From Chitinophagaceae bacterium (lineage in GTDB: Bacteria; Bacteroidota; Bacteroidia; Chitinophagales; Chitinophagaceae): DNA of 36,422 nucleotides. Under the pieces are notes generated by a model, which had not been told where the DNA came from, did no database searches, and saw nothing but the letters and a program-made list of their open reading frames with translations. Both the position numbers and the translations under genes were made by a program. The stretch is taken from contig JANYEP010000075.1 of NCBI GenBank assembly GCA_025363075.1, forward strand, positions 1 to 36,422, given 5' to 3'. Of the stretch, positions 669 to 33,016 are shown in pieces. The stretch's first letter is position 1; every line of letters starts with the position of its first letter.

Positions 669-669
669 A

Positions 670-1329: not shown

Positions 1330-1334
1330 TTGAT

Positions 1335-1964: not shown

Positions 1965-1993
1965 AGCAGTAACTTCTAAGCTGAAGAGTCTTC

Positions 1994-2803: not shown

Positions 2804-2827
2804 AATAAATTATTTTAGTGCAGATGT

Positions 2828-3598
2828 TTAATCATTTTTTATAAATTCACAATATATAACTAAACAATTTGGCGTTTTAATAAACATTTTTTGCAACAAG
2901 TGTAGAGGATACATTACAGATTCATTTAACACAAGACCAAATGGTTTAGGGAAAGTTGTTTTGTATGTTACATTTCTATTGCCAGTGTATATTGTTTTTT
3001 CCTTTTGGGTCATTGTTAAAACCTTGCTTTCTTTTTTTTTAATAAGAGCGTTAGACAAACTTAAAAGCCAGTTACTTAAAGGGTAAGTTAGTCCTGCTAT
3101 ATTTTGAATGGATAAGTTGTATTGGTTTGACATTTGCTTAAAATCTTCAAATTCATATCTTTTTATATGACCAGCAATTTCATCTTCAATGCCCCAATAT
3201 TTCATTGAAGCAGGCACATAAAAAATCATCGCTCCGTTTTTATTTAAAAGCGATTTACATTTTAATATAAATTCATTCAAGGTTTTTGGTGGCAAATGTT
3301 CTATTACCATCGAGGAAATTAATAAATCAAACTTTTGTGGTGTTTCTATACTTAGCATATCTTGGTGTAAGACTGCATAATTGCCTTTATTAACAAATGA
3401 CTTATTTAATTCAGCGTTATTAAAACAAGCACTTTGGTTTAAATCACATCCTATACCTGAGAATCCTTTTTTTAGTAAAATATTACTTACATACCCGTTT
3501 CCTGCCCCTACTTCTATAAATGTTTTCCATTTATTAAGTTTTATTCTTTCTTTTAAATAAATATTTTGCAAAATATTTCCAGGAGGTAGCACTATCAT
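2828..3598 (-). CDS. Class I SAM-dependent methyltransferase
   Basis: A 256-residue class I methyltransferase. Motif I is FIEVGAGNGYVS (about residues 27-38), followed by the acidic GIGCDLNQS and by a post-I segment DLLISSMVIEHLPP, characteristic of the UbiG/Methyltransf_11 group. The first four bases overlap the end of the upstream GT2 gene in an ATGA arrangement, which implies translational coupling with that glycosyltransferase. The likely role is methylation of a sugar in the polysaccharide, perhaps a terminal cap, but the acceptor is not determinable. It is clearly different from the other methyltransferase at 1335-1964, so the two are not a recent duplication. Confidence 0.82.
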   Translation of the reverse strand: MIVLPPGNILQNIYLKERIKLNKWKTFIEVGAGNGYVSNILLKKGFSGIGCDLNQSACFNNAELNKSFVNKGNYAVLHQDMLSIETPQKFDLLISSMVIEHLPPKTLNEFILKCKSLLNKNGAMIFYVPASMKYWGIEDEIAGHIKRYEFEDFKQMSNQYNLSIQNIAGLTYPLSNWLLSLSNALIKKKESKVLTMTQKEKTIYTGNRNVTYKTTFPKPFGLVLNESVMYPLHLLQKMFIKTPNCLVIYCEFIKND

Positions 3599-4527: not shown

Positions 4528-5217
4528 TTAAATGTTTTTAACTAAAAAATTTTTGCTTTTTTCTCCCATATTAAATATTAAGTCCCAAATGCAAACTCCG
4601 TGTTCAAATGGTGAATGCATTTGTTGATATTCTGGGTATCCATCATAAGAAAAATAATTAACGCTAATATTCTCTGCAGTAAACAAATCCTCTTCCATAT
4701 AATTTTTAGCTGCAGGTCCAGTATAATATTCTGTTGCTCCAAGTTTTTTACAAATATCAACAAGCCTTTCTGTTTTACCTTCTTTTAGGTCAAACTCTCT
4801 ACTATCTCTAAATGCTGTTTTGATTTCTAAAAATTGACAAATGGCTTTTAAGAAATGTACATTTATTGCAGTGATAGTTTCAAAAGTAGCTGTATTATAC
4901 AATTCCTCTACCCAAGATTCTAATTGCTTAAAAAAGGGAGCTTTTGAATAGCAATGTTTAACTTGTTGCCAATGATTAGTATTCCAATTTTTTTCTGAAA
5001 CAATTGTTTCATTAATTTTTTGAAAATACTTACCTTTTACTTCAACAGGAACTGTTAACCACTTTAATCCCTGATTAGTTTTAATATAATTTCTGTTTCT
5101 CCAATCTCTTCTAGTGTACTGCATATCATCAAAAACAACAAACACATCACAAGACCTTATATTATCAAAATACCCTTTCCAAGGAATGTAATTTGATTGG
5201 GTTATTAGTAGCTTCAA
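4528..5217 (-). CDS. WbqC family protein
   Basis: A 229-residue protein recognised as WbqC-like from its N-terminus, which contains QSNYIPWKGYFD, VVFDDMQYTRRDWRNRNYI and WLTVPVEVKGKY, followed by W/H-rich central segments. WbqC proteins occur in O-antigen and exopolysaccharide clusters. Their biochemical role is not firmly settled; involvement in making or transferring an aminoacyl or amino-sugar substituent has been suggested. There are no membrane segments or signal peptide, so it is probably cytoplasmic. It has zero spacing to the downstream GT2 gene and 20 nt to the upstream membrane protein gene. Confidence 0.85.
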   Translation of the reverse strand: MKLLITQSNYIPWKGYFDNIRSCDVFVVFDDMQYTRRDWRNRNYIKTNQGLKWLTVPVEVKGKYFQKINETIVSEKNWNTNHWQQVKHCYSKAPFFKQLESWVEELYNTATFETITAINVHFLKAICQFLEIKTAFRDSREFDLKEGKTERLVDICKKLGATEYYTGPAAKNYMEEDLFTAENISVNYFSYDGYPEYQQMHSPFEHGVCIWDLIFNMGEKSKNFLVKNI

Positions 5218-5237
5218 AACTTGATTTATTTAATGAT

Positions 5238-7244: not shown

Positions 7245-7247
7245 TAA

Positions 7248-8360
7248 TTATACGATTTGATTAAAATATTGTTTAATTGCATTTGCAACCTGTTGCACCT
7301 GTTCTTGTGTCATTCCTGGATAAAGTGGTAAGCTCAACATTGTATTTGCCAATTCCTCTGCAATAGGAAAATCGCCTTTTTTATGCCCAAGAAAACTATA
7401 TGCTTCCTGCAAATGTGGAGGCATAGGATAGTGAATCATCGTGCCAACGCCTTGTTGAGTTAAATATTGTTGCAATTCATCTCTTTTTGTTGTTCTGATA
7501 ATATAAAGATGATAAACGTGTGTAGCATCTTTGTGAACTTTTGGTAAAATGATTTCTGAAACATCCTTCAATGCTTCGTTATACCAATTTGCAATTTGTT
7601 GTCTTTGTAAAGTCCAGTTGGGTAAGTGTTGCAGCTTAACAGAAAGCAGTGCAGCTTGTAGTTCATCCAGCCTCATATTATGCCCAATAACCTCGTTGTA
7701 ATATTTTTTTGATGAACCATAATTGCGAAGCGATTTTATTTGAGTTGCAAAATTTGCATCGTTTGTTGTAACGGCTCCAGCATCTCCAATTGCCCCTAAA
7801 TTTTTACCAGGATAAAAACTTGTCCCATTTACGTGTCCCCAGGTTCCTGTAAGTTTATTGTTGAAAGATGAACCTTGGCTTTGTGCATTATCTTCTATCA
7901 CGAATAAATTATGCTTTTTAGCAATTGCCATTATCTCTTCCATTTCGCAACACTGGCCATATAAATGCACAGGCATTATGGCTTTTGTTTTGGGGGTAAT
8001 GGCTGCCTCAATATTTTTTGGGCTAATATTATATGTATCAATATCTGGCTCTACAAAAATGGGCGTAGCCCCAATGTAGGTAACTGCCAAAGCTGTTGCT
8101 ATATATGTGTTTGATGGAACAATTACTTCATCACCTGCCTTTACGCCAACAACTTTTAATGCCAAAAACAAAGCATCTAAACCATTGCTAACACCAATTG
8201 CATTTTCAACTTGGTTGTATGCTGCATATTCTTTTTCAAAGTTTGTAACGCTTTCGCCATTTACATACCAATAACTGTCATATACTTTTTCAAATGCAGC
8301 CATCATTTCTGTTTTAATGGATGAGTGCATTGGTTGAAAGGATAAAAAAGGGATGTTCAT
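7248..8360 (-). CDS. DegT/DnrJ/EryC1/StrS family PLP-dependent sugar aminotransferase
   Basis: A 370-residue, full-length sugar aminotransferase. The family signature is visible: GVSNGLDALFLAL near residue 56, PSNTYIATALAV at 82, the PLP-contacting VIEDNAQSQG (D157, Q160) and the Schiff-base lysine K186 in SFYPGKNLGAIGDAG. These enzymes aminate keto-sugar nucleotides using glutamate. With the two FdtA/WxcM-type cupins upstream, the best guess is an FdtB/QdtB-like role, making a 3-amino-3,6-dideoxyhexose on dTDP, but the position aminated cannot be proved from sequence. It is followed by the membrane protein gene after 3 nt and preceded by a 57-nt spacer that carries a dispersed-repeat-like sequence. 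Confidence 0.92.
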   Translation of the reverse strand: MNIPFLSFQPMHSSIKTEMMAAFEKVYDSYWYVNGESVTNFEKEYAAYNQVENAIGVSNGLDALFLALKVVGVKAGDEVIVPSNTYIATALAVTYIGATPIFVEPDIDTYNISPKNIEAAITPKTKAIMPVHLYGQCCEMEEIMAIAKKHNLFVIEDNAQSQGSSFNNKLTGTWGHVNGTSFYPGKNLGAIGDAGAVTTNDANFATQIKSLRNYGSSKKYYNEVIGHNMRLDELQAALLSVKLQHLPNWTLQRQQIANWYNEALKDVSEIILPKVHKDATHVYHLYIIRTTKRDELQQYLTQQGVGTMIHYPMPPHLQEAYSFLGHKKGDFPIAEELANTMLSLPLYPGMTQEQVQQVANAIKQYFNQIV

Positions 8361-8385
8361 TAGAATATGATTAAATGATTTTTTT

Positions 8386-8414
8386 GGAATTTGTGATTAT
8401 TCTCTATGCCTCTG
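8386..8414 (+). repeat. Dispersed-repeat-like spacer sequence (TGCCTCTGTGG core)
   Basis: The 57-nt spacer between the aminotransferase and the FemAB-like gene contains TTCTCTATGCCTCTGTGG. A related sequence, TTAGTGCCTTTGTGG, lies on the opposite strand in the spacer at 10320-10352. From memory, such sequences recur in intergenic DNA of many Bacteroidota. Only two copies are in this window, so calling it a repeat is tentative. Confidence 0.35.
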
Positions 8415-8417
8415 TGG

Positions 8418-9395
8418 TTAATTAAACATTGCTTCTATTGCAACGTAATTTTTTGTTTCAATTTCGTAAAATCTGTGTGCATACGCCCTTGCTCCAAAAC
8501 CTTCTTTCCAATCAAGCAAACCCATATTTATTTTTCTTCCTTCTTCTTCATTCACTATACCAAAATCGAAGGTTTGTTTATGGGCAAATGTTTGTGAAAT
8601 AAGGTGGTGGAATAATAAATCTATTGCCCCATTTTTCCTTCCTTCTTCGCTTGCAGAAATGTATTGAGCGTGGGCAACAGCAGGCGTTTCAAACACTGTT
8701 GTTCCAGCCATCAGCACTCCATTTTGCCAGGCTTCAAACTGGCGAATTTTATTTGGATTGTTTGTGGAAAGAGATTCCATTTCTGCTAAAGAATGAACTG
8801 GATTTACACCAAACCTGCTTTGCAAATTGGGTATTAAAATTTCGTTCCAAAACGTTGAGAAATCTGTTGTTTCTTTTATTTCAACACCAATTTTTTCTGC
8901 TTTTTTTATAGCTCTTCTCCTGCGTTCTTGGTATTGAATTTTGTTTTCTAATTGTTGATTAATGGCATAAGCAATATCAACCCTATACAATTTTGCATCT
9001 ACCAAAAACATTGCATAATCAATTTCATCCTGGCTTACAGAACTATAAAAGGATGGACTTTGCTTGAAGATAATTTTCTCAATATTATTCCCACTTACAA
9101 ACTTTAAAAGCTGTGCAAAATATTGAATGGAATTTTTTGTGGCTTCATCTTTTGCAACAACAAAACCACCAAAAGTTAAACCACTATGGCTAACAACAAT
9201 ATTGTTTTTAATGTTTGCAGGAAAAATTGCAACTATGTTTTTTTCATCAAAAACTAATAATGAATAATCTTCAAAACGGTCTTTATGATATTCCATAAAG
9301 TTGCGAGAAAGCAGGAATTGATTGGTTCTGCTTTGCTCTAAAAAATTATTCCAAAGCTCTTTGTCTGTGTCTATGTATCTTCTTACTGAAATCAT
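8418..9395 (-). CDS. FemAB/GNAT-type acyltransferase
   Basis: A 325-residue protein resembling the FemAB-like GNAT (Acetyltransf_6/BioF2-like) group: two GNAT-like halves, a basic helix QERRRRAIKKAEKIG near residue 157, and a C-terminal half with LMAGTTVFETPAVAHAQYISASEEGRKNG split over typical beta-alpha elements. Family members move acyl or aminoacyl groups onto amino groups of cell-envelope intermediates. In this cluster it could acylate the amino sugar made by the neighbouring aminotransferase; acetyl-CoA or aminoacyl-tRNA as donor cannot be decided. Its ATG shares one base with the stop of the upstream GH43-like gene (TAATG), so the two are translationally coupled. Confidence 0.75.
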   Translation of the reverse strand: MISVRRYIDTDKELWNNFLEQSRTNQFLLSRNFMEYHKDRFEDYSLLVFDEKNIVAIFPANIKNNIVVSHSGLTFGGFVVAKDEATKNSIQYFAQLLKFVSGNNIEKIIFKQSPSFYSSVSQDEIDYAMFLVDAKLYRVDIAYAINQQLENKIQYQERRRRAIKKAEKIGVEIKETTDFSTFWNEILIPNLQSRFGVNPVHSLAEMESLSTNNPNKIRQFEAWQNGVLMAGTTVFETPAVAHAQYISASEEGRKNGAIDLLFHHLISQTFAHKQTFDFGIVNEEEGRKINMGLLDWKEGFGARAYAHRFYEIETKNYVAIEAMFN

Positions 9396-10315
9396 TATTT
9401 CTTCAATCTCGCTATGCCAAAACCTGTGGCACCATTGCTGTTGCCATTGTAAAACATATATCGTTCGCCTTTAATATCAATGATAGATGGATAACAAATC
9501 ATTTCACTATCCCATCCTTCATTTGATACATCAATGCCAACTTCTTCATCTTTTCTTGTCCATATAAAGCCATCATTGCTTTCTGCATATCCAATGCGGT
9601 ACATTTTTTCTATAATTCTTATACTGTACCACATTTTAAAAATACCATCTTCAAAAATTACAGAAGGACGAGCTACAGAAAACTCTCCTTTGCTTTCATC
9701 AGGTGCAAGGCAGGTAATATTGTGCATTGTCCAGTTAATGGCATCTGTACTTTCGGCATATCCAATTTGATAATCTAAAAAAGGTTTGCCTTCAACTGTT
9801 ATCCATTTTGTGCTAAACCAATGCCACATTTTATAAACGCCATCGTGAAATAAAACTGTTGGAGCTCCCTGTGATGTTGGTCTAAAATTATTGCGTGGAA
9901 GTATGGGTGCAACACTTGTTCTTTTGAAGCTTACTCCATCGTCTTCACTTTCTATCAAGCCTGCAAACAACATATATGGCACTCGTCCACAACGTTGATA
10001 GCCCACAGTGTAAACATACAATTTGTCATCTTTTTTAATGAGGCAACTTGGCACCACACCACTATCATCAAAAGTTCCTAAAGCACCAATATCTAAAATG
10101 GGTTCTGTGCTTTCGCCAACAATTTGGGTTAAATCATCAGCGTTTAAATCAACATAGCAAATTCTGCAAAATATTTCTTTATCGGCACTTCCAAAAAATA
10201 CACGAACAATGTTCTGCTCTTCTATAAATAAAGGAACAGGTAATTGCCCATATTTATAATTCCACCATTTATCGGCTTTTGGAGCCCAGATTAATCCAAG
10301 TTTTTCCCAGTTCAT
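9395..10315 (-). CDS. GH43-like beta-propeller protein, copy 1
   Basis: I place the start at the ATG at 10313-10315 (MNWEKLGLIWAPK). The frame can be extended to a TTG at 10348, but those 11 codons fall in the repeat-like spacer and look non-coding. The 306-residue protein has recurring propeller units with IGYAESTDAINW, SVIFEDGIFKMWYS, IGYAESNDGFIW and YMFYNGNSNG, as in GH43/GH130-like folds. It lacks a signal peptide, so it is probably cytoplasmic. Similar proteins appear in O-antigen and capsule loci; the catalytic activity is unproven. It is paralogous to the partial protein at 1-668, and each copy follows a NeuD-like gene. Its stop overlaps the ATG of the FemAB-like gene by one base. Confidence 0.8.
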   Translation of the reverse strand: MNWEKLGLIWAPKADKWWNYKYGQLPVPLFIEEQNIVRVFFGSADKEIFCRICYVDLNADDLTQIVGESTEPILDIGALGTFDDSGVVPSCLIKKDDKLYVYTVGYQRCGRVPYMLFAGLIESEDDGVSFKRTSVAPILPRNNFRPTSQGAPTVLFHDGVYKMWHWFSTKWITVEGKPFLDYQIGYAESTDAINWTMHNITCLAPDESKGEFSVARPSVIFEDGIFKMWYSIRIIEKMYRIGYAESNDGFIWTRKDEEVGIDVSNEGWDSEMICYPSIIDIKGERYMFYNGNSNGATGFGIARLKK

Positions 10316-10319
10316 TTTT

Positions 10320-10352
10320 TGTATTGCCACAAAGGCACTAAGACGCAAATTG
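10320..10352 (-). repeat. Dispersed-repeat-like spacer sequence (TGCCTTTGTGG core)
   Basis: The spacer just upstream of the GH43-like start holds, on the minus strand, TTTGCGTCTTAGTGCC followed by TTTGTGG. It resembles the spacer sequence at 8386-8414, which is on the opposite strand. It explains the false N-terminal extension of the GH43-like frame. I know similar sequences only as common intergenic motifs; copy number in this genome is unknown. Confidence 0.35.
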
Positions 10353-10389
10353 TTTTATAACTAATACCTAAATTACCAATTCTCATTTA

Positions 10390-11070
10390 CTATGCATCAG
10401 GTTCTACACCAAATGCCTCGTAGCTTGATTTTATTCTTTTTGCAGGACTTCCAACATAAATACTTCCAGCTTCTGTATCACGAACAATAATAGTTCCATT
10501 ACCTATGATACTATCTTTTCCAAACTTTACTCCATCATTAAACGATGAATTTACACCCAAAAAAGAACTGCTTCCTATTACACAAAAACCAGAAATTACA
10601 ACGTGAGATGATATAAAGCAATTGTCTTCAATAATGGTTTGGTGACCAATGTGGTTGCCACTCCAAAGGATAACATTGTTGCCAATCTTCACCTTATATT
10701 GAATAACATTTTCCTCGAAAATGAAAGTGTTTTCGCCAATTTCTACATTATGCCAAACAAAAGCGTGGCTGTTTACATAGCTTGCAAACTTGTAGCCAGC
10801 AGCCTTGCCTTTTTGGTACATTGAAGTGCGTATCCTGTTTATTTTTCCAAACGATGCAGCAGCAAACATTTCATATTCACCTGGTGGATATTTTGCCACC
10901 ACTTCATCAAAAGGAACTATTGGCAAGCCAAGCAAACTATTTGCTGTCATATATTCTTTATCAACAGTAAAAGCAACTACTTCATAAATAGAATCCTGAA
11001 TAAAATAATCGGCAATCATTTCTGCAGTTTCGCCAATGCCATACACGATTAGTTTTTTTTCTTTAGTCAT
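10390..11070 (-). CDS. NeuD/PglD-like sugar acyltransferase, copy 1
   Basis: A 226-residue protein with an N-terminal Rossmann-like segment (LIVYGIGETAEMIADYF) and a C-terminal left-handed beta-helix with hexapeptide turns, including ILWSGNHIGHQT, FISSHVVISGF and a final IYVGSPAKRIK. Members acylate UDP- or dTDP-amino sugars with acetyl-CoA. It lies directly downstream (3 nt) of the FdtA/WxcM-like cupin. In WxcM/FdtD proteins an acyltransferase and a ketoisomerase are fused, so the adjacency supports a shared pathway to an N-acylated 3-amino-3,6-dideoxyhexose. It is a full-length paralogue of the protein at 670-1329, so the two may act on different positions or sugars. Confidence 0.87.
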   Translation of the reverse strand: MTKEKKLIVYGIGETAEMIADYFIQDSIYEVVAFTVDKEYMTANSLLGLPIVPFDEVVAKYPPGEYEMFAAASFGKINRIRTSMYQKGKAAGYKFASYVNSHAFVWHNVEIGENTFIFEENVIQYKVKIGNNVILWSGNHIGHQTIIEDNCFISSHVVISGFCVIGSSSFLGVNSSFNDGVKFGKDSIIGNGTIIVRDTEAGSIYVGSPAKRIKSSYEAFGVEPDA

Positions 11071-11073
11071 TGC

Positions 11074-11493
11074 TTATAGGTTTTTAAAGGTTTTAAAGTC
11101 GTTATAATTTCTAAAATAATCTGCTTCGGTATATAAATGAGAAGCCAAAACCAAACAGATTGCCCCAGAAGAAAAATTATCAATATCTCGCCAAATACCT
11201 GGCTTTATGTGCAAGCCAATATATGGACGACTTAGTTGAAAGGTTTGTTTGTTTGTACCATCATCAAGGGTAATGTCAAAGCTGCCACTTGCTGCAACTA
11301 TCAATTGTTCCAAATCTTTATGCCCGTGAGCAGCACGAGATTCTCCACCTGGCACATCATATAAATAATAAATTCTATTTACAGCAAAAGGAATATCCTT
11401 GTTATTTTCGATGGGTGTAATGCTGCCCAAATTACTTTGAATTTTGGGAAGCTGAATTATTTTGCAGTCAAAAACAGATATACTACTACCCAT
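11074..11493 (-). CDS. FdtA/QdtA/WxcM-like cupin, dTDP-sugar 3,4-ketoisomerase (HxH copy)
   Basis: A 139-residue single-domain cupin. The family pattern is clear: PFAVNRIYYLYDVPGGESR, then AAHGHKDLEQLIVAASGSF (H56 and H58), LDDG, and the C-terminal LVLASHLYTEADYFRNYNDF. FdtA and QdtA convert dTDP-4-keto-6-deoxyglucose to the 3-keto isomer with galacto or gluco configuration, the substrate for a 3-aminotransferase. Both histidines of the HxH pair, expected to act in proton transfer, are present, so this copy should be active. The gene overlaps the second cupin gene by 8 nt. Fuc3N and Qui3N outcomes cannot be told apart by eye. Confidence 0.85.
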   Translation of the reverse strand: MGSSISVFDCKIIQLPKIQSNLGSITPIENNKDIPFAVNRIYYLYDVPGGESRAAHGHKDLEQLIVAASGSFDITLDDGTNKQTFQLSRPYIGLHIKPGIWRDIDNFSSGAICLVLASHLYTEADYFRNYNDFKTFKNL

Positions 11494-11884
11494 TTTTTAG
11501 TTTTAAATAGTCATCAAAATTTCTAATATAATCGTTGGCATCATAAAAATTATTGGACATTACCAACACCAATGAATTGGTAGAAAAATTTTGAAACTTT
11601 CGCCACAGCATTTGTGGCAAATGCAAGCCATAATATGACCTGTTTAAATGATACAATGTTTCTTTTTGCCCATCGTTTACTACTACATCAAAACTGCCAC
11701 TTAGTGCCACCACAAACTCCTCATTGGTTTTGTAAGCGTGACTACCACGTTCTTCGCCACCTGGCACATCATATACCCAGTAAGTTCTATTTATTGTAAA
11801 AGGTATGTGATTATTTTCCTCAATAAAAGACAAATTGCCTCTATTGTCGAGTATTTTAGGAAGTTGAATTATTTGGGGTTGCAT
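11486..11884 (-). CDS. FdtA/QdtA/WxcM-like cupin, second copy (HxY variant)
   Basis: I choose the ATG at 11882-11884 (MQPQIIQLPKI). The longer frame starts at a TTG at 11914 inside the upstream glycosyltransferase gene and adds no family sequence. The 132-residue protein parallels the copy at 11074-11493: ILDNRGNLSFIEE, PFTINRTYWVYDVPGGEERG, GSFDVVVNDG and NFYDANDYIRNFDDY. The HxH pair is changed to H49-A-Y51. It may therefore be a catalytically altered or structural partner of the adjacent copy, or have a different isomerase specificity; this is inference. It begins 4 nt after the glycosyltransferase stop and overlaps the next gene by 8 nt. Confidence 0.82.
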   Translation of the reverse strand: MQPQIIQLPKILDNRGNLSFIEENNHIPFTINRTYWVYDVPGGEERGSHAYKTNEEFVVALSGSFDVVVNDGQKETLYHLNRSYYGLHLPQMLWRKFQNFSTNSLVLVMSNNFYDANDYIRNFDDYLKLKNG

Positions 11885-11888
11885 TTGC

Positions 11889-12902
11889 TTATTGTGCCTT
11901 GGTGTTTTCTGCAACTATTTTCCTGTAGAGATTATAGTATTGGTTTGCAATTTCGTGCTTGTCAAAACGCTTCACATTTTCAAAGCCATTCTGTATCAAT
12001 TGCTCTCTGTAAGAGTCGTCATTTATTACTTTTAAAAATCCGTTTCGTATAGAATTAATGTCAAACGGATCTACCAATTGTGCTGCATTGCCTGCAATTT
12101 CTGGCATTGAGGTAGTATTGCTTGTTACAACAACACGCCCTGTTGCATTTGCTTCAGCTATTGGCATTCCAAAACCTTCAAGTGTTGATGCAAATGAAAC
12201 TATGTCACACTGTTTGTAAAGATTTGCAACTTCTTCATCTGTAATGGAGTAATTGATATTTTCAAAATCAATATTGTTTTTTTTTAAAATATTGATGGTA
12301 TCGTTATCTAAAGAACCAAGTATTATATACTTACAAGCAATACCGTTTAAAGCAGCTGCAATGCGAGGAATATTCTTATTAGGTGCTGTACCCAATTGAA
12401 ATATAACAGGTTTCTCTTTATTAAAAAGCTTGATATTAGGTTTATGAACCTCTGGAACAAAAATGTAAATAACCTTTATTTTTTCCTCGGGAAAACGAAT
12501 ATAGGTAAGCAAATCCTGTTTGGTGGCATTGGAATTTACTGTTATATAGTTTGTTTTTTTTGCAGGAAGTGTGTACCAAAAAAATTTTACGATTTCAAAA
12601 TTGATACCCGTAATTCTTTTTAAAAAACCACAATCGTGAACCGTCAAAATATTCTTTTTTTTTGATAGAAAAATATTTATAAAATGAATATCGCCAGTAG
12701 TGTGATTAACATCCTTTTGATAAAAAAAAGATTCAATCGCAATGTATAATCGTTTAAAAAAACCATTACTTACATACCTTGGTATTTTAACAGAAACATT
12801 TATATCAGTGGCTTGAAGGTCTCTTATTGTTTTAAAATAACTTTCTATGCTATGATTTCCTGTTTCCCTTCTTTTTCTTTGAAAATGTACTATTTCCATC
12901 AT
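11889..12902 (-). CDS. GT4 family glycosyltransferase (GT-B fold)
   Basis: A 337-residue retaining glycosyltransferase of the GT1/GT4 type. The diagnostic C-terminal motif, STLEGFGMPIAEANATGR followed by TSNTTSMPEIAGNAAQLVDP, lies near residues 240-280 and supplies the EX7E-type donor-binding glutamates. The N-terminal acceptor half includes NILTVHDCGFLKRI. Both ATGs of the MM start are possible. The likely job is adding one sugar of the repeat unit to the lipid-linked intermediate at the cytoplasmic face. It sits between the amidotransferase gene (10 nt) and the cupin pair (4 nt). It is one of only two clear nucleotide-sugar glycosyltransferases in view. Confidence 0.9.
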   Translation of the reverse strand: MMEIVHFQRKRRETGNHSIESYFKTIRDLQATDINVSVKIPRYVSNGFFKRLYIAIESFFYQKDVNHTTGDIHFINIFLSKKKNILTVHDCGFLKRITGINFEIVKFFWYTLPAKKTNYITVNSNATKQDLLTYIRFPEEKIKVIYIFVPEVHKPNIKLFNKEKPVIFQLGTAPNKNIPRIAAALNGIACKYIILGSLDNDTINILKKNNIDFENINYSITDEEVANLYKQCDIVSFASTLEGFGMPIAEANATGRVVVTSNTTSMPEIAGNAAQLVDPFDINSIRNGFLKVINDDSYREQLIQNGFENVKRFDKHEIANQYYNLYRKIVAENTKAQ

Positions 12903-12912
12903 TAATTTCTCA

Positions 12913-14709
12913 CTAATTCAAATTATCAAATTTGTTTTTACTACTAATCCTATTTGTTAAAAATACAGACCAAAGCCTCGAGAAGTTTAATTTTTTTGCA
13001 ATAAAATTTTTATAAATCCATAAAGGAGTGTATTGTGTATTAGTAAACACGGCCATTGTTTTAAACCAGTTTTCAAATGGAAAAGTAAACCCTTGTTTTG
13101 GGCGATTCCAAATTTTTTCTGGCAATTCATTTATATATGCATCTACCAATAACTGCTTCTTTTTGGCTTCTGAAAATTTAATTGAAGCAGGCAAATTGTT
13201 TACATATTCCATTAAATCTTTATCTAAAAAAGGAACACGCAACTCCAAACTATGCCACATACTTTGTACATCACTATCTTTCAACAACTGACATTGCATA
13301 TAGATGGATGTTTCGTAATAGGTAGCTCTATTTTGTGCTGATAATTGTTCTATATTTTCTTGAAAAGTTAAGGTTGCTAATTCTTTCCACACATCATTTT
13401 CAGTAATATCTAAAATTTTTGCAACATCTTTTGGCACAAATAGCCCACGATATAATAAATATTCTGAAGCTTGTATTTGTTTATGTAAAAATGATATTTT
13501 TTTTCTTGGGTAGGAGTCTATTAAAAATGCTGGCAGAAACTGGCTTAGCATAGCCATTCTAGAATATTGTGAAAACTTATTTACACGATTAACAGATGAA
13601 TAACCACCAAAAATTTCATCGGCACCTAAGCCGCTCAAAACAACTTTTAAGCCATTTTGCTTAGCATATTTACAAATGAAATGTGTGTTGATTGCATCTG
13701 TTGAAGGTTGATCTAAACTTTCATAAATTTCGTTCCAAGATTCGAGAAACTCCTCTTTTGAAATTTTATATAAATGATGTTTTACACCAGTTTGTTTGAT
13801 AATGATTTCTTGATACTCTTTTTCTGAATATTTTTCATCATCAAAATAAATACTAATAGTTTCAACTGGAGATGTTTGCTGTTGCTGTGCAACTATTGCC
13901 AAAATACTGCTATCAATTCCTCCACTTAAAAAAACACCGACAGGAACGTCGGCGATTAAATGTCTTTTTACTGCTAAATCAACCAGCTCTCGTGTTTTCT
14001 GTACTGCAGCCTTGTAAGTAGTAACTTCATTGCGGTATTGATATTCAAAATAAGAAGCAATTTTTTCTTCTTTTGTTTCAAGGTTTATTGTAATGTAATG
14101 CCCTCTTGGTAAAGGCTTCACATTGTTTAAAGTAGTAACTGGTTCTGGCAAGAAACCAAAAGTTAAAAACCAGATTTTCCAATTAGGATTTTCATCCCAA
14201 TTTTCAACTGTAGCCTTCAAGCCTCTAATTTCAGATGAGAAATAAGTATTTCCATCTTTCTTACCAATATATAAAGGCTTTATTCCAGCGTGGTCTCTTG
14301 CAGCAAAAAGTATTTTATTTTTTTTGTCAATTAAAACAAATGCAAACATCCCTTTCAACTTTGAAAGTATTTCTGCACCCCACTCTCTGTAACCTTTTAT
14401 TAAAACTTCGGTATCAGATTTAGAATTGAAAATATATCCTTTTTCTTCGAGCTCTTCTTTTAGTTCCAAGTAATTGTAAATCTCGCCATTGAAAACAATT
14501 TCAATAAAATCATCAATCATTGGTTGATGACCAGCTGGCGATAAATCAATAATCGCAAGTCTTCTGTGCCCTAAGGCGTATCCTAAATCTTCATTAACAA
14601 TGTGTCCTTTGTCATCTGGTCCACCACGGTACATAGCTTCTGTCATAGCAGTAATATTGCCTTCCAATGAAGAAATATTTTTGCTAATGATAGCTGCTAT
14701 TCTACACAT
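12913..14709 (-). CDS. asnB: Asparagine synthase (glutamine-hydrolysing)-like amidotransferase
   Basis: A 598-residue AsnB-type protein. The N-terminal glutaminase domain has the nucleophile Cys2 (MCRIAAI; the usual third residue is Gly), then RGGPDDKG, GHRRLAIIDLS and FNGEIYNY. The synthetase domain has the ATP pyrophosphatase loop VFLSGGIDSSILA near residue 256 and LSGLGADEIFGGY. In polysaccharide clusters such enzymes are thought to amidate sugar carboxylates, for example uronic acids to uronamides, although free asparagine synthesis is also possible. Its ATG overlaps the stop of the tyrosine kinase gene by one base (TAATG), so it is tied to the export genes. Arg3 in place of Gly is unusual and worth noting, but all other key motifs look intact. 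Confidence 0.9.
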   Translation of the reverse strand: MCRIAAIISKNISSLEGNITAMTEAMYRGGPDDKGHIVNEDLGYALGHRRLAIIDLSPAGHQPMIDDFIEIVFNGEIYNYLELKEELEEKGYIFNSKSDTEVLIKGYREWGAEILSKLKGMFAFVLIDKKNKILFAARDHAGIKPLYIGKKDGNTYFSSEIRGLKATVENWDENPNWKIWFLTFGFLPEPVTTLNNVKPLPRGHYITINLETKEEKIASYFEYQYRNEVTTYKAAVQKTRELVDLAVKRHLIADVPVGVFLSGGIDSSILAIVAQQQQTSPVETISIYFDDEKYSEKEYQEIIIKQTGVKHHLYKISKEEFLESWNEIYESLDQPSTDAINTHFICKYAKQNGLKVVLSGLGADEIFGGYSSVNRVNKFSQYSRMAMLSQFLPAFLIDSYPRKKISFLHKQIQASEYLLYRGLFVPKDVAKILDITENDVWKELATLTFQENIEQLSAQNRATYYETSIYMQCQLLKDSDVQSMWHSLELRVPFLDKDLMEYVNNLPASIKFSEAKKKQLLVDAYINELPEKIWNRPKQGFTFPFENWFKTMAVFTNTQYTPLWIYKNFIAKKLNFSRLWSVFLTNRISSKNKFDNLN

Positions 14710-17216
14710 TAATAAGCTTTTTTACTTGTATCTGTTTTTGAGCCACCAAACAAATTTTTAACCCATTTTGCAACTTTGGTAAATACACCTGCTTCTCCCA
14801 TATCATCAAAATAATGTCCAGAAGTTTTGCTTACATAACCATAACCATAGCCTTTTCTGCCATAACCATAACCATAACCATAACCATAACCATAGCCATA
14901 GCCATAGCCATAGCCATAATAACCATATCGAGCTCCTACCTTAACATCATTGATAATTAAACCCATTCCTGGTAACTTATCGCCTTGATAAATATCATCA
15001 ATAAAGTCAACTTGTTTTTTTAGTGTGTAACGCTGACGTATAACATATAAAGAAGCATCTGCATATTCGGCAATTGTGAAAGTATCACTTACCAATCCTA
15101 CTGGTGCAGAGTCAATAATTATGTAATCATATTCGGCTTTTAACAAATTAAATAGCTCTTTCATATGCACACCTAACATAAGCTCTGAGGGGTTAGGAGG
15201 AAGTGGTCCACAACCATAGACGTGTAAGGTTGGGTATTGCTCAAAAGTATAATAAAGGTTGTCTAAAGTTTTGCTTTGACCAATTAGGAAATTACTAATA
15301 CCAAATTCTTTTTTCTCAACTCCAATACTTTTAATGATTCTTGGTTTACGCAAGTCAAACTCAAGTACTGCAACTTTTTTACCAGATATTGCTAAAACAG
15401 CCCCTAAGTTCAAAGTAATAAAAGATTTACCCTCACCACTAATTGAAGAAGTTACTAAAACCGTTTTTTTGCCCTCTGTTAACAGAAATTGCAGATTCGT
15501 TCGTATGATTCTAAATTGTTCAGAAATAATACTTCTGCTTTTATGTGCAACTACAAACGCTTTTGTATTGCTATAGTGTCCAACCTCTCCAATAAATGGA
15601 GATGAAGTCTTTTTAGTGATATCGTCTCTACTTGTAACTTTATCATTTAGAACTGCTTTAACATATATTAAACCTATTGGAAATAGAAGCCCAATAATAA
15701 TTCCATATAAACGCCATTTAGCTTGATCTGGTTCAAAGGGTCCTCCAGGTATTGTTACTTCATCAAACTGTTGGTAGTTGGATGTCGTTGCAGCAGAAGT
15801 TACTAATGTCTCTTCTCTACGTTGCATCAAATAAATGTAAATTGCTTCTTTAATTTTCTGTTCTCTACCTACACTTACATAGGTTTTTTCAAACTCTGCA
15901 CCACCTCCAAAAAGCGATTTTAGGCTTGCGTTATTTTCTTCTAATTTTTTTATTTTTCTCTCAAGATCAACTTTGTAATCACTAAGACGCTTCATTAAGC
16001 TGTTACGAGCCTCATCTAAGTTAAGTTTGGCTCTAGCTATTAGCTCACTATTTCTACCCAATGCTTTTTCTTCATTAATTAAAACTGCTTTTTCAGTATT
16101 AAAAAAACCTACCAAAGCAGCTATTGTTGGATCATCAATTCCCAAGTAAGATGGTACTAAGTCTGCTTTATCTGTTTCAATAATTCTCTTCTGAAGTTGT
16201 GTAACTGCATCCAATTTACCATTAACTTCAATAAATATTTTAGTATTATTGTCAAATTCCTGCGTTTTTCCTAGTAATAATTCTTTTTGATAAAAGTATG
16301 GATTCTCTTTTTTGAATTCGGTTGCTTTTTCTTCAACTCCATCTAACTCACTTTTAACAATCGCAAGTCTATTTGTAATGAAATTTACTGTGTTGGTTGC
16401 TACAATATTTTTTTCTTCAATATTTTGGTTTCTGTATTCAGTTATTAACGAGTTTAAAATATCAGAGCCTCTTTGTGGGTTTTCGGAGGATAGTGTTAAA
16501 TTAATAATTGTTGTTTTCGTACCAAGTGGGTTAACGTTTAAGTTGTTAGAAATTTCAGCTGTTGCTGTTCTAGTTGGTTTCCAGGTTACATAGTAATTTA
16601 CTATGGGAAATGTGGTAACATTATTTCGTTTATTTAATATTAGTTTATATCCTAAATATTCAAAAACAACACCCCAAGAGAATTTAGTTTCAATATCATT
16701 TTTCTTATCTCGCTTTCTAAACCATACACCACCATCAGCATTTAATTTTTTAAGTATAAATGTTGATGGCTTTGTGGAATCAGGAATACTTATAAAAGTC
16801 GTTTCAAAAGGAATTGATTTAGAGTAAGTTTCTGTTTTTTTAATACTTCCTTCAACATAGTATTGCACATTAAAGTTGTTTTTTTCAACCACCTTAGCCA
16901 TTAAAGCCTTTGATTTAATGAGTTCAACCTCATTATCAAGATTTACTTTTTTCCCTCCATACATTGCAGCATCAATCAAATCATTTGAGCCTCCACCACG
17001 TGTGCTTCCTCCAGACTTATCGTCATTTTTAACTAAAATTTGTGCTGTGTTTTTGTATTTCGGCACAAGGTACCTTACATAAATATAAGATGCTGTTATG
17101 CATAGTGCAAGGCTTACGATAAATAGTGGTAAATATGATAGATACATAAAAAGCACCTCGGTTGGGGTAGCTTTTTTTTCAGATTCGTTTACAAGGACGT
17201 TGTCGTTTTTTGCCAT
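14709..17216 (-). CDS. Wzc-like polysaccharide co-polymerase / BY-type tyrosine autokinase with Gly-Tyr repeat tail
   Basis: An 835-residue bacterial tyrosine kinase. The Wzz-type chain-length domain is flanked by membrane helices at about 28-48 and 499-518, the second preceded by a proline-rich PGGPFEPDQAKW. The cytoplasmic kinase has Walker A (SSISGEGKS, about 589-597), Walker A' (VLEFDLRKP, about 617-626) and Walker B (YIIIDSAPVG, about 697-706). It controls polymer length and export with the Wza-like partner encoded 16 nt upstream. BY-kinases normally end in a tyrosine cluster that is autophosphorylated. Here the cluster is replaced by a long alternating Gly-Tyr tract (about residues 764-794, some 15 tyrosines), followed by a further 40 residues ending KKAY. 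Confidence 0.93.
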   Translation of the reverse strand: MAKNDNVLVNESEKKATPTEVLFMYLSYLPLFIVSLALCITASYIYVRYLVPKYKNTAQILVKNDDKSGGSTRGGGSNDLIDAAMYGGKKVNLDNEVELIKSKALMAKVVEKNNFNVQYYVEGSIKKTETYSKSIPFETTFISIPDSTKPSTFILKKLNADGGVWFRKRDKKNDIETKFSWGVVFEYLGYKLILNKRNNVTTFPIVNYYVTWKPTRTATAEISNNLNVNPLGTKTTIINLTLSSENPQRGSDILNSLITEYRNQNIEEKNIVATNTVNFITNRLAIVKSELDGVEEKATEFKKENPYFYQKELLLGKTQEFDNNTKIFIEVNGKLDAVTQLQKRIIETDKADLVPSYLGIDDPTIAALVGFFNTEKAVLINEEKALGRNSELIARAKLNLDEARNSLMKRLSDYKVDLERKIKKLEENNASLKSLFGGGAEFEKTYVSVGREQKIKEAIYIYLMQRREETLVTSAATTSNYQQFDEVTIPGGPFEPDQAKWRLYGIIIGLLFPIGLIYVKAVLNDKVTSRDDITKKTSSPFIGEVGHYSNTKAFVVAHKSRSIISEQFRIIRTNLQFLLTEGKKTVLVTSSISGEGKSFITLNLGAVLAISGKKVAVLEFDLRKPRIIKSIGVEKKEFGISNFLIGQSKTLDNLYYTFEQYPTLHVYGCGPLPPNPSELMLGVHMKELFNLLKAEYDYIIIDSAPVGLVSDTFTIAEYADASLYVIRQRYTLKKQVDFIDDIYQGDKLPGMGLIINDVKVGARYGYYGYGYGYGYGYGYGYGYGYGRKGYGYGYVSKTSGHYFDDMGEAGVFTKVAKWVKNLFGGSKTDTSKKAY
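14835..14927 (-). repeat. 6-bp microsatellite encoding a Gly-Tyr tract in the autokinase tail
   Basis: A tandem 6-bp unit, CCATAA or CCATAG on the plus strand (read as GGTTAT or GGCTAT on the coding strand), is repeated about ten times without break, with three more GY codon pairs after an interrupting Arg-Lys. It lies in the C-terminal coding part of the Wzc-like gene. The unit length is a multiple of three, so gain or loss of units keeps the frame and changes only the number of tyrosines. Confidence 0.9.
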
Positions 17217-17232
17217 TTTATTATTTTATCAA

Positions 17233-18081
17233 TTAAAATTTTCCTTTTGTCAAAACTAATATGTTAAATACTAAAAAGAGTGTCGAAATAGTAGTAAGAG
17301 CCAAACTATAATCTCTTTGAAAATTTGGGTTTACATTAAGAGTCTTCAGCTTGTTAATATTGGCTCCAACATATATAATATCATTTTGTTGCACTTGAAA
17401 TGCTGGAGAATTAATGAAGGTTGTGTTTCTCAAGTCTATCTTAAATGTTTCATATTTACCTGCAATTTGTCTCATCAACAAAATATCTTCACGTTTTCCA
17501 TAATCTGTTAGGTCTCCTGCTTCAGCTATTGCATCTAATATAGAAGCTTTATCAGTCCTAAAACTAACGACACCAGGTCTTTTAACTTCGCCCAAAACGT
17601 TCACCTTAAATTGAGCAAGCTTTACTATAATTAAGGGTTTTACAATTTCATCTGCGAGTTTTATTTTAATCAAATCTGCGAGTTCTTGCTTTGTCAGTCC
17701 AGCAGCTTTAATTTTTCCAATTTTAACCATTTCAATATATCCTTGCATATCTATTTGATAAGTTGGAGAAGAAGTTTGTGCAGAGCTTGGCAGAGCAATA
17801 CCTGTTGAAGTTCCAGCAGTTGATGAAATTGCAGTACTTTGATTTGCCTGATTAAACAACAAAGCATCTTCTTGTCTTAATGACCCTGCAATCACTTGAA
17901 TTGTTATAAGATCATTTTCAACAAACTTGTATTCAATAAATTCTATCTTGGGAACACTATCAACTCCTCTTTGAAAATAATTATAGTCTTTTGCTATTCT
18001 TTTTTGAGGATCGCAAGAAGTAAGTGTTATTGTAAAAAGTGAAACACCAACACCCAAAAATAGTTTTTTTAGTTGTATCAT
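17233..18081 (-). CDS. Wza-like polysaccharide export lipoprotein
   Basis: A 282-residue outer-membrane export protein. The N-terminus is a lipoprotein signal with lipobox LTSC (C23). A Poly_export domain follows (ENDLITIQVIAG, then YIEMVKIGKIKAAGLTKQEL), then an SLBB-type segment (VNVLGEVKRPGVVSFR) and a second ligand-binding-like stretch with QQNDIIYVGAN. A hydrophobic helix near the C-terminus (about 258-278) probably spans the outer membrane, as in Wza. It is the first gene of the long minus-strand cluster, preceded by a leader of roughly 220 nt after a -7-like element. The ATG at 18079-18081 lies 1 nt after the stop of a possible 15-codon leader ORF. Confidence 0.92.
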   Translation of the reverse strand: MIQLKKLFLGVGVSLFTITLTSCDPQKRIAKDYNYFQRGVDSVPKIEFIEYKFVENDLITIQVIAGSLRQEDALLFNQANQSTAISSTAGTSTGIALPSSAQTSSPTYQIDMQGYIEMVKIGKIKAAGLTKQELADLIKIKLADEIVKPLIIVKLAQFKVNVLGEVKRPGVVSFRTDKASILDAIAEAGDLTDYGKREDILLMRQIAGKYETFKIDLRNTTFINSPAFQVQQNDIIYVGANINKLKTLNVNPNFQRDYSLALTTISTLFLVFNILVLTKGKF

Positions 18082-19629: not shown

Positions 19630-20199
19630 GTGTTTTCTCAAATTAATAAAAAATATCCCGAAGCAATATTTGTTGCCAAGTTGCTTACATTGTTTTCAAT
19701 CTTTTATTTTGGAACAGAATTTTGGATTGGCATTACAGCTAAAGGAAATTTATATTCAGCTTTTTGCGACGAGTATTTAAACTATGTAGAATGGCTAAGG
19801 CTTTTTATTTTAAAGGGTGCTAGTATTATCTGTAATTTATTTGGGCATAATACAATCATTGAAAACACTAAATCTTTAAAAATTGTTGGAGGGTACAGGG
19901 TAAATATGGTTTACAGTTGCATCGGTTTTGGAATATTAAGTAGTTGGGCAGCTTTTGCAATTGCTTATCCGGCAAAACTGAAGAAAAAAATAATTTGGCT
20001 TTTTGGTGGGTTACTAATAATTTGTTTTATAAATATTCTAAGAATTGCAGCTTTGCTTATGTTAATTAACAAAGCAAAAAACATACAAGTATTCACTTCT
20101 CATCATACAGTTTTCAATTGGGTTGCTTACATACTTGTGCTGATACTTATTTATTTTTATACAAAAGAAAAACAGGAGCAATCTCAAAACCATAAATAA
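19630..20199 (+). CDS. Small archaeosortase/exosortase-family membrane protein
   Basis: A 189-residue multipass protein starting at GTG (19630-19632), 4 nt after the acyltransferase stop. The three catalytic-type residues of exosortases are visible in order on the predicted membrane core: C97 in VYSCIGFGILSSW, R138 in INILRIAALL, and H158/H159 in TSHHTVFNW. It is much shorter than the EpsH-type exosortases of about 300 residues and fits the short Bacteroidota class; I cannot name the subfamily. Exosortases are transpeptidase-like enzymes that process proteins with a C-terminal sorting tail. No protein with such a tail is seen in this window, so the substrate must be elsewhere or the function differs. 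Confidence 0.8.
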   Translation: MFSQINKKYPEAIFVAKLLTLFSIFYFGTEFWIGITAKGNLYSAFCDEYLNYVEWLRLFILKGASIICNLFGHNTIIENTKSLKIVGGYRVNMVYSCIGFGILSSWAAFAIAYPAKLKKKIIWLFGGLLIICFINILRIAALLMLINKAKNIQVFTSHHTVFNWVAYILVLILIYFYTKEKQEQSQNHK

Positions 20200-30538: not shown

Positions 30539-30554
30539 AACTAAAAAAATAGTT
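30539..30554. promoter_or_regulatory. Candidate BlaI-type operator 1 (AACTA-N6-TAGTT)
   Basis: A 16-bp inverted repeat with perfect 5-bp arms upstream of the BlaI-type gene. Staphylococcal BlaI/MecI sites have the related form ACTACA-N2-TGTAGT, so an ACTAA/TTAGT half-site is plausible. It overlaps the presumed -33 region. Confidence 0.55.
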
Positions 30555-30558
30555 GTAT

Positions 30559-30574
30559 AACTAAAATATTAGTC
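30559..30574. promoter_or_regulatory. Candidate BlaI-type operator 2 (AACTAA-N4-TTAGTC)
   Basis: A second 16-bp palindrome with one outer mismatch, starting 20 bp after the first. It lies between the presumed -33 TTG (30553-30555) and the -7 element (30577-30584), where repressor binding would block RNA polymerase. Confidence 0.55.
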
Positions 30575-30576
30575 TA

Positions 30577-30584
30577 TATATTTG
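30577..30584 (+). promoter_or_regulatory. -7-like element for the BlaI / M56-amidase pair
   Basis: TATATTTG matches TAnnTTTG exactly, with a TTG at 30553-30555 about 21 nt upstream as a candidate -33 element. The presumed start of transcription would fall close to 30590, giving a leader of only about 15 nt. The promoter is enclosed by the palindromes. Confidence 0.6.
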
Positions 30585-30585
30585 C

Positions 30586-30605
30586 ATAACTAAACATTTA
30601 GTTAT
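30586..30605. promoter_or_regulatory. Candidate BlaI-type operator 3 overlapping the start codon
   Basis: ATAACTAAACATTTAGTTAT is a 20-bp palindrome, perfect except for its central CA. It covers the expected transcription start and the first two bases of the BlaI-type ATG. It is the strongest of three related sites, consistent with autorepression of the two-gene unit. Confidence 0.65.
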
Positions 30606-30969
30606 GATAAATAAAACGCTTACAAAAGCTGAAGAGCAAATAATGCAGGCTCTCTGGAAATTGGAGACTGCTTATCTCAAAGATATTATTGAAGCCCTGC
30701 CTGAACCCAAACCCCACAACAATACAGTTGCAACGCTTTTAAAGATTTTGATAGAAAAGGAATTTGTTGACAACGAAGTACACGGAAGAAATCATAATTA
30801 CTATCCAATTGTTTCAAAGCAAGATTATACAAGTGGCAGTATAAACAACATTGTAGAAAACTATTTTGATGGTTCTTTTAAAGATGCTGTTTCATTTATG
30901 GTTGATAAAAAGAAATTAAAACTTAAAGACATTGAGCTTTTATTAAATCAACTTAAAACTAAAAAATAA
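30604..30969 (+). CDS. BlaI/MecI/CopY family transcriptional repressor
   Basis: A 121-residue winged-helix repressor. The N-terminal DNA-binding domain starts LTKAEEQIMQALWKLETAYL and includes the recognition-helix region HNNTVATLLKILIEKEFV; the C-terminal helices (SFKDAVSFMVDKKKL) form the dimerisation part, as in BlaI and MecI. In the classical system the repressor is inactivated by proteolysis triggered by the membrane sensor BlaR1. The next gene, 1 nt downstream, is an M56 protease of the BlaR1 type, so the two form a repressor/sensor pair. Three palindromes cover its promoter and start codon, so autoregulation is likely. No beta-lactamase gene is next to it; the regulated target may be elsewhere. 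Confidence 0.95.
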   Translation: MINKTLTKAEEQIMQALWKLETAYLKDIIEALPEPKPHNNTVATLLKILIEKEFVDNEVHGRNHNYYPIVSKQDYTSGSINNIVENYFDGSFKDAVSFMVDKKKLKLKDIELLLNQLKTKK

Positions 30970-30970
30970 T

Positions 30971-33016
30971 ATGCTACCACTAACTTATTTTTTTAAAGTA
31001 ATGCTTTGCACTGCTGCATTCTTTGGCTATTATTTAATAGCACTTCGCAACAAAAAATTTCATCAATACAATAGATTTTATTTATTGTTTTCTGTTGCAG
31101 CTTCTTGGCTGATTCCATTATTAAAATTTCAAATTGGTGTTGAGCAAAAAGTGCAGCAACCCATTTATCAAGTATTTACTTATATTGCTGAAAGCAATGC
31201 TGCATTGGAGTTTGAGTCAACACAACAAGTAGCAACATCATTTAACTGGATGCAATTACTACCCATTTTTTATTTTGCAATTGCAGTTATTATTTTAATA
31301 GCACTTCTTATATCTCTATTCAGAATTTATCGCATTTATACAAAATATCCAAAGCAAAAAACAGAAAATATTGTGCTACTAAATACCACAGAAGACGGAA
31401 CTCCTTTTTCATTTTTCAAATTCATTTTTTGGAATGATGAAATAGATGCAAACTCGATTGCTGGCAAACAAATTTTGCAACACGAGCTAACACACGTTAA
31501 AGAAAAACACAGTTGGGATAAAATTTTTATACAAATAAACCTTGTATTTGGTTGGTTCAACCCTTGCCTTTGGCTAATAAAAAAAGAACTTGAAATGATA
31601 CACGAATTCATTGCAGACAATAAAGCTATAGAAAATGCTGATGCTAATGATTTTGCTTCAATGCTTTTGGTAGCAGCATTTCCAGCACATCAATATAAAC
31701 TCACAAATCCATTTTTCTTTTCACCAATAAAACGCAGATTAATTATGCTAACTCAAAACAAAAACCCAAGATTATCTTATTTAAGAAGAGTAATTGCATT
31801 GCCATTACTTGCTATTGTTGTATTACTTTTTGCCTTTAGAAAAAAGGAAGTTGTAACGAACTTTAAAACAGAAAAAAAGTATAAAATAGTTATTGATGCT
31901 GGACACGGAGGAACAGATTTTGGTTGCAAATCAATAGATGGTAGTGTTTATGAAAAAGATATAGACCTTGCCATTGCAAAAGCTATTAAACACCTTAACA
32001 AAAACATTGAAATTGTATTAACAAGAGATGATGATCATTTTGATCAAGTTAAGGCAAAAGCCGATTTTGTGAACAGTCAAAATGCAGATTTATGTGTAAG
32101 TATTCATTGCAGTGATGCAAAGAGCGATAATGGAGAATCTAACAATACTAGAGGTACTGAAATTTATGTGGTAAGCCCAGAAAAAAATAATGGCTTTATG
32201 AATGAAAGCAAGCTATTAGCACAAAATGTGAATGAAGTATTAAAAAAAGATTTTATTAATAGAGGCATCAAAACACGTAAAGTTGGGATTTGGATTTTAC
32301 AAGCTACCAATTGCCCTACAATACTTGTAGAAGCAGGGTTTTTATCAAATAAAAATGATGCAGCAATGCTTCAAAAAACAGATAAACAGGAATTGATTGC
32401 AATTGATATTTTGAAAGGAATTGAAAATTATTTGGCATTGAAAGAGCAAAAAGTTGAACTGCCCAAACAAAAAATTATTGAAAAAGATACCCGTCAAGTA
32501 TATAATTTGAATGCAGAATTAATTGAAATAAAAATTGAGGACAAAGCTAGTGAGAAAGACTTGAAAGAGTTTAAGGCAATTGCTGGCAGATATGATATTT
32601 ATAATAATCCAAGACCCAATTGCGAAACAATAAATGGTATTACAATTAGTGAAAGAAATAAGTTGTTTTCAATCTATGAAAAAATGTCTGCTACCCAAAA
32701 GAGTAATTCATTTATTACATTTAAAAAACCAAATCCCATATCCAAAAACCAGCCAACACAAATTCAAATGAATCATTGCATTAATAACACTGGTTTTGAA
32801 GTTTATGTTGATGGCAAAAAAATATTGAACGAAGAGTTGGGAATGTATTCATACAACGATTTTGCTGATTTCTACGAATACCAAAGTCAAGAAAATGGTA
32901 CGACTAAAATTTATCTTAAAACGAATAAATTTTTTGAATTACAAAACGCAGAACATATGAGCAAAAAATATTCAGAAATGATAATCAACGGTATTTACCA
33001 TGTTGGGATAAAATAA
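30971..33016 (+). CDS. BlaR1-like M56 membrane protease fused to a periplasmic N-acetylmuramoyl-L-alanine amidase domain
   Basis: A 681-residue fusion. Helices at about 5-25, 37-52 and 96-117 precede a cytoplasmic M56 zinc-protease domain with HELTH (171-175) and a distal E in EMIHEFIADNKAI. A fourth helix (272-289) follows. In BlaR1 the part after this helix is an extracytoplasmic penicillin-binding sensor. Here it is an amidase_3 domain (about 304-490) with IDAGHGGTD (H312), E328, SIHC (H379) and ILVEAGFLSN (E454), i.e. all expected zinc ligands and the catalytic glutamate. The last 190 residues have no motif I recognise. Amidase_3 enzymes cut between MurNAc and the stem peptide, so the protein could sense or trim peptidoglycan and relieve the repressor encoded 1 nt upstream. 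The signalling role is inference. Confidence 0.9.
   Translation: MLPLTYFFKVMLCTAAFFGYYLIALRNKKFHQYNRFYLLFSVAASWLIPLLKFQIGVEQKVQQPIYQVFTYIAESNAALEFESTQQVATSFNWMQLLPIFYFAIAVIILIALLISLFRIYRIYTKYPKQKTENIVLLNTTEDGTPFSFFKFIFWNDEIDANSIAGKQILQHELTHVKEKHSWDKIFIQINLVFGWFNPCLWLIKKELEMIHEFIADNKAIENADANDFASMLLVAAFPAHQYKLTNPFFFSPIKRRLIMLTQNKNPRLSYLRRVIALPLLAIVVLLFAFRKKEVVTNFKTEKKYKIVIDAGHGGTDFGCKSIDGSVYEKDIDLAIAKAIKHLNKNIEIVLTRDDDHFDQVKAKADFVNSQNADLCVSIHCSDAKSDNGESNNTRGTEIYVVSPEKNNGFMNESKLLAQNVNEVLKKDFINRGIKTRKVGIWILQATNCPTILVEAGFLSNKNDAAMLQKTDKQELIAIDILKGIENYLALKEQKVELPKQKIIEKDTRQVYNLNAELIEIKIEDKASEKDLKEFKAIAGRYDIYNNPRPNCETINGITISERNKLFSIYEKMSATQKSNSFITFKKPNPISKNQPTQIQMNHCINNTGFEVYVDGKKILNEELGMYSYNDFADFYEYQSQENGTTKIYLKTNKFFELQNAEHMSKKYSEMIINGIYHVGIK

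Follow-up and report, generated by a model that had tools for sequence, protein, structure and literature searches.

Receptors of the BlaR1 type switch on penicillin resistance in staphylococci and, to our knowledge, are known almost only as detectors of β-lactams. BlaR1 has the zinc motifs H201EXXH and E242XXXD and an extracytoplasmic loop, EL1 (residues 56–96), which fills the cleft of the sensor and is displaced by the β-lactam; it cuts the repressor BlaI directly, and BlaI of Staphylococcus aureus is cleaved at Asn101/Phe102 (PMC9834060). The window analyzed here, a stretch of 36,422 nucleotides from a Chitinophagaceae bacterium (contig C94 of a 3.0-Mb genome in 281 contigs, about 96% complete), encodes a protein of 681 residues in which an M56 membrane protease is fused to an Amidase_3 domain; its gene (30,971–33,016, + strand) begins with ATG and is a single uninterrupted frame. 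Like BlaR1/MecR1, the protein has an N-terminal four-helix M56 protease with HExxH and ExxxD motifs and an EL1 of about 40 residues, and, as in the BlaR1/MecR1 and BlaI/MecI systems of S. aureus and Bacillus licheniformis, a gene for a BlaI-family repressor is adjacent, with operators at its promoter. It differs in that the position after TM4 holds the amidase and a tail instead of a penicillin-binding sensor, in that no β-lactamase or mecA-like target was seen beside the locus, and in the operator, AACTA-N6-TAGTT. The SxxK transpeptidase-like C-terminal sensor is absent, Amidase_3 standing in its place (the blaR1_generic model scores 25.6 bits against a cut-off of 400), and without a penicillin-sensor domain the fusion protein is therefore not a BlaR1, although its mode of working is probably the same. 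The searchable literature, which comprised open-access papers only, yielded no account of an M56-Amidase_3 fusion, and PMC12578637 and PMC10470040 contain nothing relevant to M56/BlaI; the bare architecture may exist in domain databases.

The membrane protease region (residues 1–288; 30,971–31,834, +) has four transmembrane segments, at about residues 2–25, 31–50, 93–125, and 268–288 as judged from hydropathy and the predicted structure, and Pfam places Peptidase_M56 (PF05569) at residues 167–260 with 47.1 bits (curated cut-off 31). A profile of this half, made from 20 relatives, matches S. aureus BlaR1 (PDB 8exp) with an E value of 7e-10 over positions 10–286, so that the homology spans all four transmembrane helices; the helices and the homology agree with an N-out/C-out topology, which is thus predicted for the receptor. 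The HELTH zinc protease motif (residues 171–175; 31,481–31,495, +) and the ExxxD motif of the third zinc ligand region (Glu212–Asp216; 31,604–31,618, +) align on H201EXXH and E242XXXD of BlaR1. Both are invariant in 56 of 56 aligned fused copies and 53 of 53 unfused relatives, and the protease is therefore almost certainly meant to work. The counterpart of EL1, between TM2 and TM3 (residues 53–92; 31,127–31,246, +), is the least conserved stretch of the M56 region. In the predicted model, the pLDDT of the M56 part is about 43–88 by block, and the model does not fix the placement of the domains.

The original prediction described a BlaR1-like M56 sensor-protease with an intact peptidoglycan amidase in the sensor position, and both halves were placed by Pfam above their curated cut-offs. 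The amidase domain (residues 303–493; 31,877–32,449, +) gives a full-length Amidase_3 match (1–174 of 174) at residues 306–486, with 138.8 bits against a cut-off of 27. The model of residues 303–493, which is mostly confident, superimposes on 4rn7 with a Z score of 29.2 and a deviation of 1.4 Å over 181 residues, and many other Amidase_3 structures match it at Z 25–29, the nearest at 1.2–1.6 Å. The zinc ligands His312, Glu328, and His379 and the catalytic Glu454 are all present, in agreement with the earlier claim that every catalytic residue is kept; its number for Glu328 and its VEAGFLSN motif, which holds Glu454, are right, and its GHGG and SIHC motifs, which start at Gly311 and Ser377, place the two histidines at 312 and 379. 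The domain thus resembles CwlD, CwlV, the Clostridioides difficile enzyme 4rn7, and AmiA/B/C in fold, zinc ligands, and catalytic Glu, but unlike these enzymes it is joined to a membrane protease and lies only about 15 residues away from the M56 part. A comparison of domain lengths and alignments indicates that the fused amidases also lack the autoinhibitory insert of the AmiA/B/C type: the domain is about 180 residues long in the fusion versus 250–270 in the stand-alone AmiC-like amidases of the family, whose insert falls between the two matched blocks. The linker following the M56 match is 9–21 residues long in most copies and 43–49 in seven, and a short linker would keep the enzyme near the membrane.

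Among the 56 aligned fused copies, the zinc ligands are kept in all and the catalytic Glu in 52, including that of the window; in the other four, whose zinc ligands are intact, it is replaced by Gln (L005 and L050), Ala (L010), or Gly (L095). By its substitution rates the amidase evolves under purifying selection, with dN/dS values in close pairs of 0.06–0.17, compared with 0.06–0.14 for the M56 region and 0.20–0.42 for the tail. From these sequence features, the amidase domain is likely to be enzymatically active.

The remaining residues, 495–681 (32,453–33,013, +), which had been noted as an unassigned tail of 190 residues, form a real, conserved domain of 187 residues that has so far been found only on M56 proteins and has no Pfam family or significant fold match. 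Its profile matches 3 of 41 relatives, namely the window gene, a fused gene in G023, and a gene of G020 in which it lies directly beside the M56 match, and in L057–L062 the tail directly follows M56, with no amidase. Only the stretch of about residues 590–664 is modeled with confidence in the tail, and a fold search with the tail returned no significant match; the several TonB-dependent receptor chains at Z of about 3 are not evidence for that fold. Tails vary widely among the fused copies, and other relatives carry Plug-like and TonB_C modules at the C-terminal end, so placed that the amidase module sits between the M56 part and the other C-terminal modules. The Bacteroidota M56 proteins with Plug-like and TonB_C modules share the M56 clade, the linkage to blaI, and the operators with the fusion, and include direct orthologues at the same locus, but they have no amidase. 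In the fusion L091:1486–4494, the C-terminal part holds a Plug-like and a GldM third domain, and in L039:4001–6178 an M23 (LytM) domain comes after the amidase; as judged by eye, this M23 domain seems to lack the catalytic motifs that are usual for its kind. Activation of amidases is a known function of LytM domains.

The adjacent gene, blaI (30,604–30,969, +), encodes a BlaI/MecI-family winged-helix repressor of 121 residues (PF03965, E 5e-30, 104.6 bits) that is similar to the solved MecI structures 1sd6 and 1okr. Phe98/Met99 of this protein align with the cleavage site Asn101/Phe102 of BlaI/MecI, in a strongly conserved region with Met, Leu, or Phe at P1′. A gap of one base separates blaI from the fusion gene, and the next gene downstream is on the other strand, so that the operon consists of blaI and the fusion gene. 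The lpxB-like and surE-like genes (named by eye), which are conserved neighbors, are also on the opposite strand and look like chromosomal context as opposed to operon members. Elsewhere in the window, a gene at 19,630–20,199 for an exosortase/archaeosortase-family protein close to XrtY (152.5 bits versus a cut-off of 160) adjoins an apparent exopolysaccharide cluster (about 1–18,081), and 14,709–17,216 (−) encodes a Wzc-like tyrosine autokinase in which a long GYGYGY run lies close to the C terminus.

The blaI promoter contains tandem palindromes of the pattern AACTA-N6-TAGTT, which are putative BlaI operators. The first (AACTAAAAAAATAGTT, 30,539–30,554) belongs to a tandem site that is kept upstream of blaI in relatives, the second (ACTAAAATATTAGT, 30,560–30,573) is 20 bp from the first, and a third (AACTAAACATTTAGTT, 30,588–30,603) abuts the blaI start codon. 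Between the second and third, at 30,577–30,584 (+), is the sequence TATATTTG, a match to TAnnTTTG, which we take to be the −7 promoter consensus of Bacteroidota; such a match alone is not significant, and it is its location directly after the operators that suggests a promoter. At least two ACTA-N6-TAGT sites, with a usual spacing of 20 bp, are found in 47 of 54 fused promoters, compared with an expectation of 0.006 sites per shuffled promoter. When 41 genomes were searched for the tandem operator, 16 had one match each, 15 of these at blaI-M56, versus 4 genomes with matches to the reversed control pattern. In the window's genome, it occurs once, at the blaI-fusion operon, which is therefore probably self-regulated, with the receptor-amidase as the main predicted product. 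A wider regulon was considered and rejected, since the numbers of sites in the genome are those of chance (11 for AACTA-N6-TAGTT versus 19 for the reversed control; 9 versus 7 for ACTA-W6-TAGT). The other single sites lie mostly inside open reading frames, and two that are just at start codons, C87:11773 (a small secreted protein) and C107:5211 (accA-like), are indistinguishable from chance. In G048, a tandem operator with no blaI nearby (L147:1501–1534) is upstream of a DUF1573 protein and is possibly a remote BlaI target or a coincidence. The same genome as the window has a second blaI-M56 pair (G000:C124; L001:889–2764) with neither an amidase nor AACTA operators, and in L021, L025, L027, L028, and L031 the palindromes upstream of blaI are TACGAA...TTCGTA in place of AACTA...TAGTT, a second operator class.

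Of the 296 genomes sampled from the window's family, at least 75 contain a single match that covers both M56 and amidase. The named relatives are Chitinophagaceae, among them Ferruginibacter and Sediminibacterium, and the strains with the fusion include Sediminibacterium goheungense DSM 28323 and Sediminibacterium ginsengisoli DSM 22335. The expectation that a BlaI gene always lies next to this architecture holds in all 54 fused loci that have upstream sequence. Outside the family, among the matches listed from 395 genomes across the phylum, the only copy is in G537, a member of a different family, where the fusion (L111:1531–2958) also accompanies blaI; its presence there points to transfer or to a separate fusion event. 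A single origin of all fused amidases including that of L111 stays compatible with the data (AU p 0.36), so that a fusion arising twice is no more than possible.

The fused amidases of the family form a group of their own, to the exclusion of the stand-alone domains (support 92/95). In G017, an amidase encoded by its own gene next to blaI-M56 (L012:160–975) is nested in this group and looks like a product of fission of the fusion. Copies with and without the amidase are intermixed in the M56 tree, where well-supported branches force at least 11 changes. L055:4001–5659 shares the neighborhood of L040–L044 and is missing the whole amidase, in frame; orthologues of this kind retain blaI together with the operators and the M56 motif, and there have been repeated losses of the amidase among receptors that are otherwise orthologous. 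In L045 and L066 (about L045:5125–5725), the amidase stretch is mostly 57–70% identical between flanks of near 95% identity, suggesting a probable cassette exchange by recombination. The mixed tree, the in-frame loss, and the cassette exchange together characterize the amidase as a module that can be removed or swapped while the receptor is conserved.

The components indicate, with high probability, a circuit of M56 protease, BlaI, and operators. The extracytoplasmic module is most likely a real amidase, which would act as a regulated enzyme and probably as a ligand sensor. We tentatively favor a BlaR1/BlaI-type circuit with a working amidase on the receptor, whose occupancy or turnover is the likeliest input and whose own dosage is the direct output, a reading that falls a little short of an even call. 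By homology, the amidase of the receptor would face outward from the inner membrane, and, from the location of the operators, BlaI bound to the tandem sites over its own promoter would repress both blaI and the receptor gene. A cue received by the extracytoplasmic part would activate the M56 protease through TM4/EL1; the protease would then cut BlaI near Phe98/Met99, derepressing the operon and producing more receptor-amidase. The amidase, about 12–20 residues from the M56 part, would be able to bind muramoyl-L-Ala bonds of peptidoglycan that is near the membrane and probably uncrosslinked, and to cleave them. The location after TM4, the short linker, and the losses of the catalytic Glu with intact zinc sites favor the amidase as the input, whereas the repeated loss of the whole domain counts against it, so that this role is almost as probable as its opposite. 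The more specific proposal, that turnover on nascent peptidoglycan signals across the membrane to M56 and releases BlaI, making the substrate the signal and the gene itself the output, is doubtful. The absence of the amidase from many orthologous receptors means that it is not a universal sensor and that the circuit does not require it in every case, and the four copies without the catalytic Glu indicate that binding without cutting is also tolerated. The earlier interpretation is supported in part, and its idea of an enzyme and sensor at once fits the copy in the window.

It is possible, if rather unlikely, that the amidase is an output only, that EL1, the membrane part, or a C-terminal module (the tail, Plug-like, or TonB_C) does the sensing, and that the circuit doses a tethered hydrolase. 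The persistence of the circuit in receptors lacking the amidase, the sole tandem operator found in the genome at its own operon, and the purifying selection on the amidase are all consistent with this. A precedent for control through a membrane partner is the LytH amidase of S. aureus, which depends on the transmembrane protein ActH (PMC8496864). The fusion is like LytH-ActH in pairing an amidase with a transmembrane part, but there ActH licenses LytH as a separate protein, whereas here a single M56-type protein is accompanied by a repressor gene. The amidase, however, occupies exactly the position of the BlaR1 sensor after TM4, it has lost the catalytic Glu but no zinc ligand in 4 of 56 copies, and the tails, which are among the candidate sensors, differ widely.

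These same four copies, with Gln, Gln, Gly, or Ala at the catalytic position, would suit an amidase fold that acts, as in BlaR1, as a non-cutting sensor, binding peptidoglycan on a hydrolase scaffold. In CwlD, mutations of zinc ligands, but not of the catalytic Glu, lowered the levels of CwlD and of its activator GerS in spores (PMC8496864), which is in keeping with such a role. This explanation is improbable, given that the window copy and 51 others retain the full catalytic set and that dN/dS is low in the tested pairs.

Slightly less probable again is that the amidase makes a co-inducer, the freed stem peptides being imported and trimmed to a γ-D-Glu-diamino acid dipeptide that weakens the binding of BlaI to DNA. 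The bond whose cleavage releases the stem peptide is precisely the one that an amidase cuts, and γ-D-Glu-m-A2pm binds BlaI/MecI, specifically Bacillus BlaI and MecI, and destabilizes the complex with DNA (PMC3305447). However, later work showed direct cleavage of BlaI by BlaR1 (PMC9834060), the BlaI of the window is distant from those with reported dipeptide binding, two further Amidase_3 genes elsewhere in the window's genome could supply the peptide, and some fused copies have lost the catalytic Glu. Finally, a joining of two genes by assembly error or frameshift, which a single contig of a fragmented genome might suggest, is ruled out for practical purposes, because no stop or frameshift separates the halves and the same order in one frame recurs in at least 75 genomes of the family, dozens of them independent and including the DSM 28323 and DSM 22335 strains, so that the fusion is neither chance nor an assembly join.

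In this family, whose members are environmental bacteria, the wall-facing part of the receptor is an apparently intact wall-cutting enzyme in place of a penicillin detector, and gene control may thus be coupled directly to contact with the wall or to its cleavage. The orthologues form a natural matched set in which the amidase is present, absent, split off, or catalytically disabled; this set makes it testable whether M56/BlaI circuits sense peptidoglycan itself and allows one to ask how an outside domain drives the M56 protease. If the turnover reading is true, the receptor would read the wall by cutting it.
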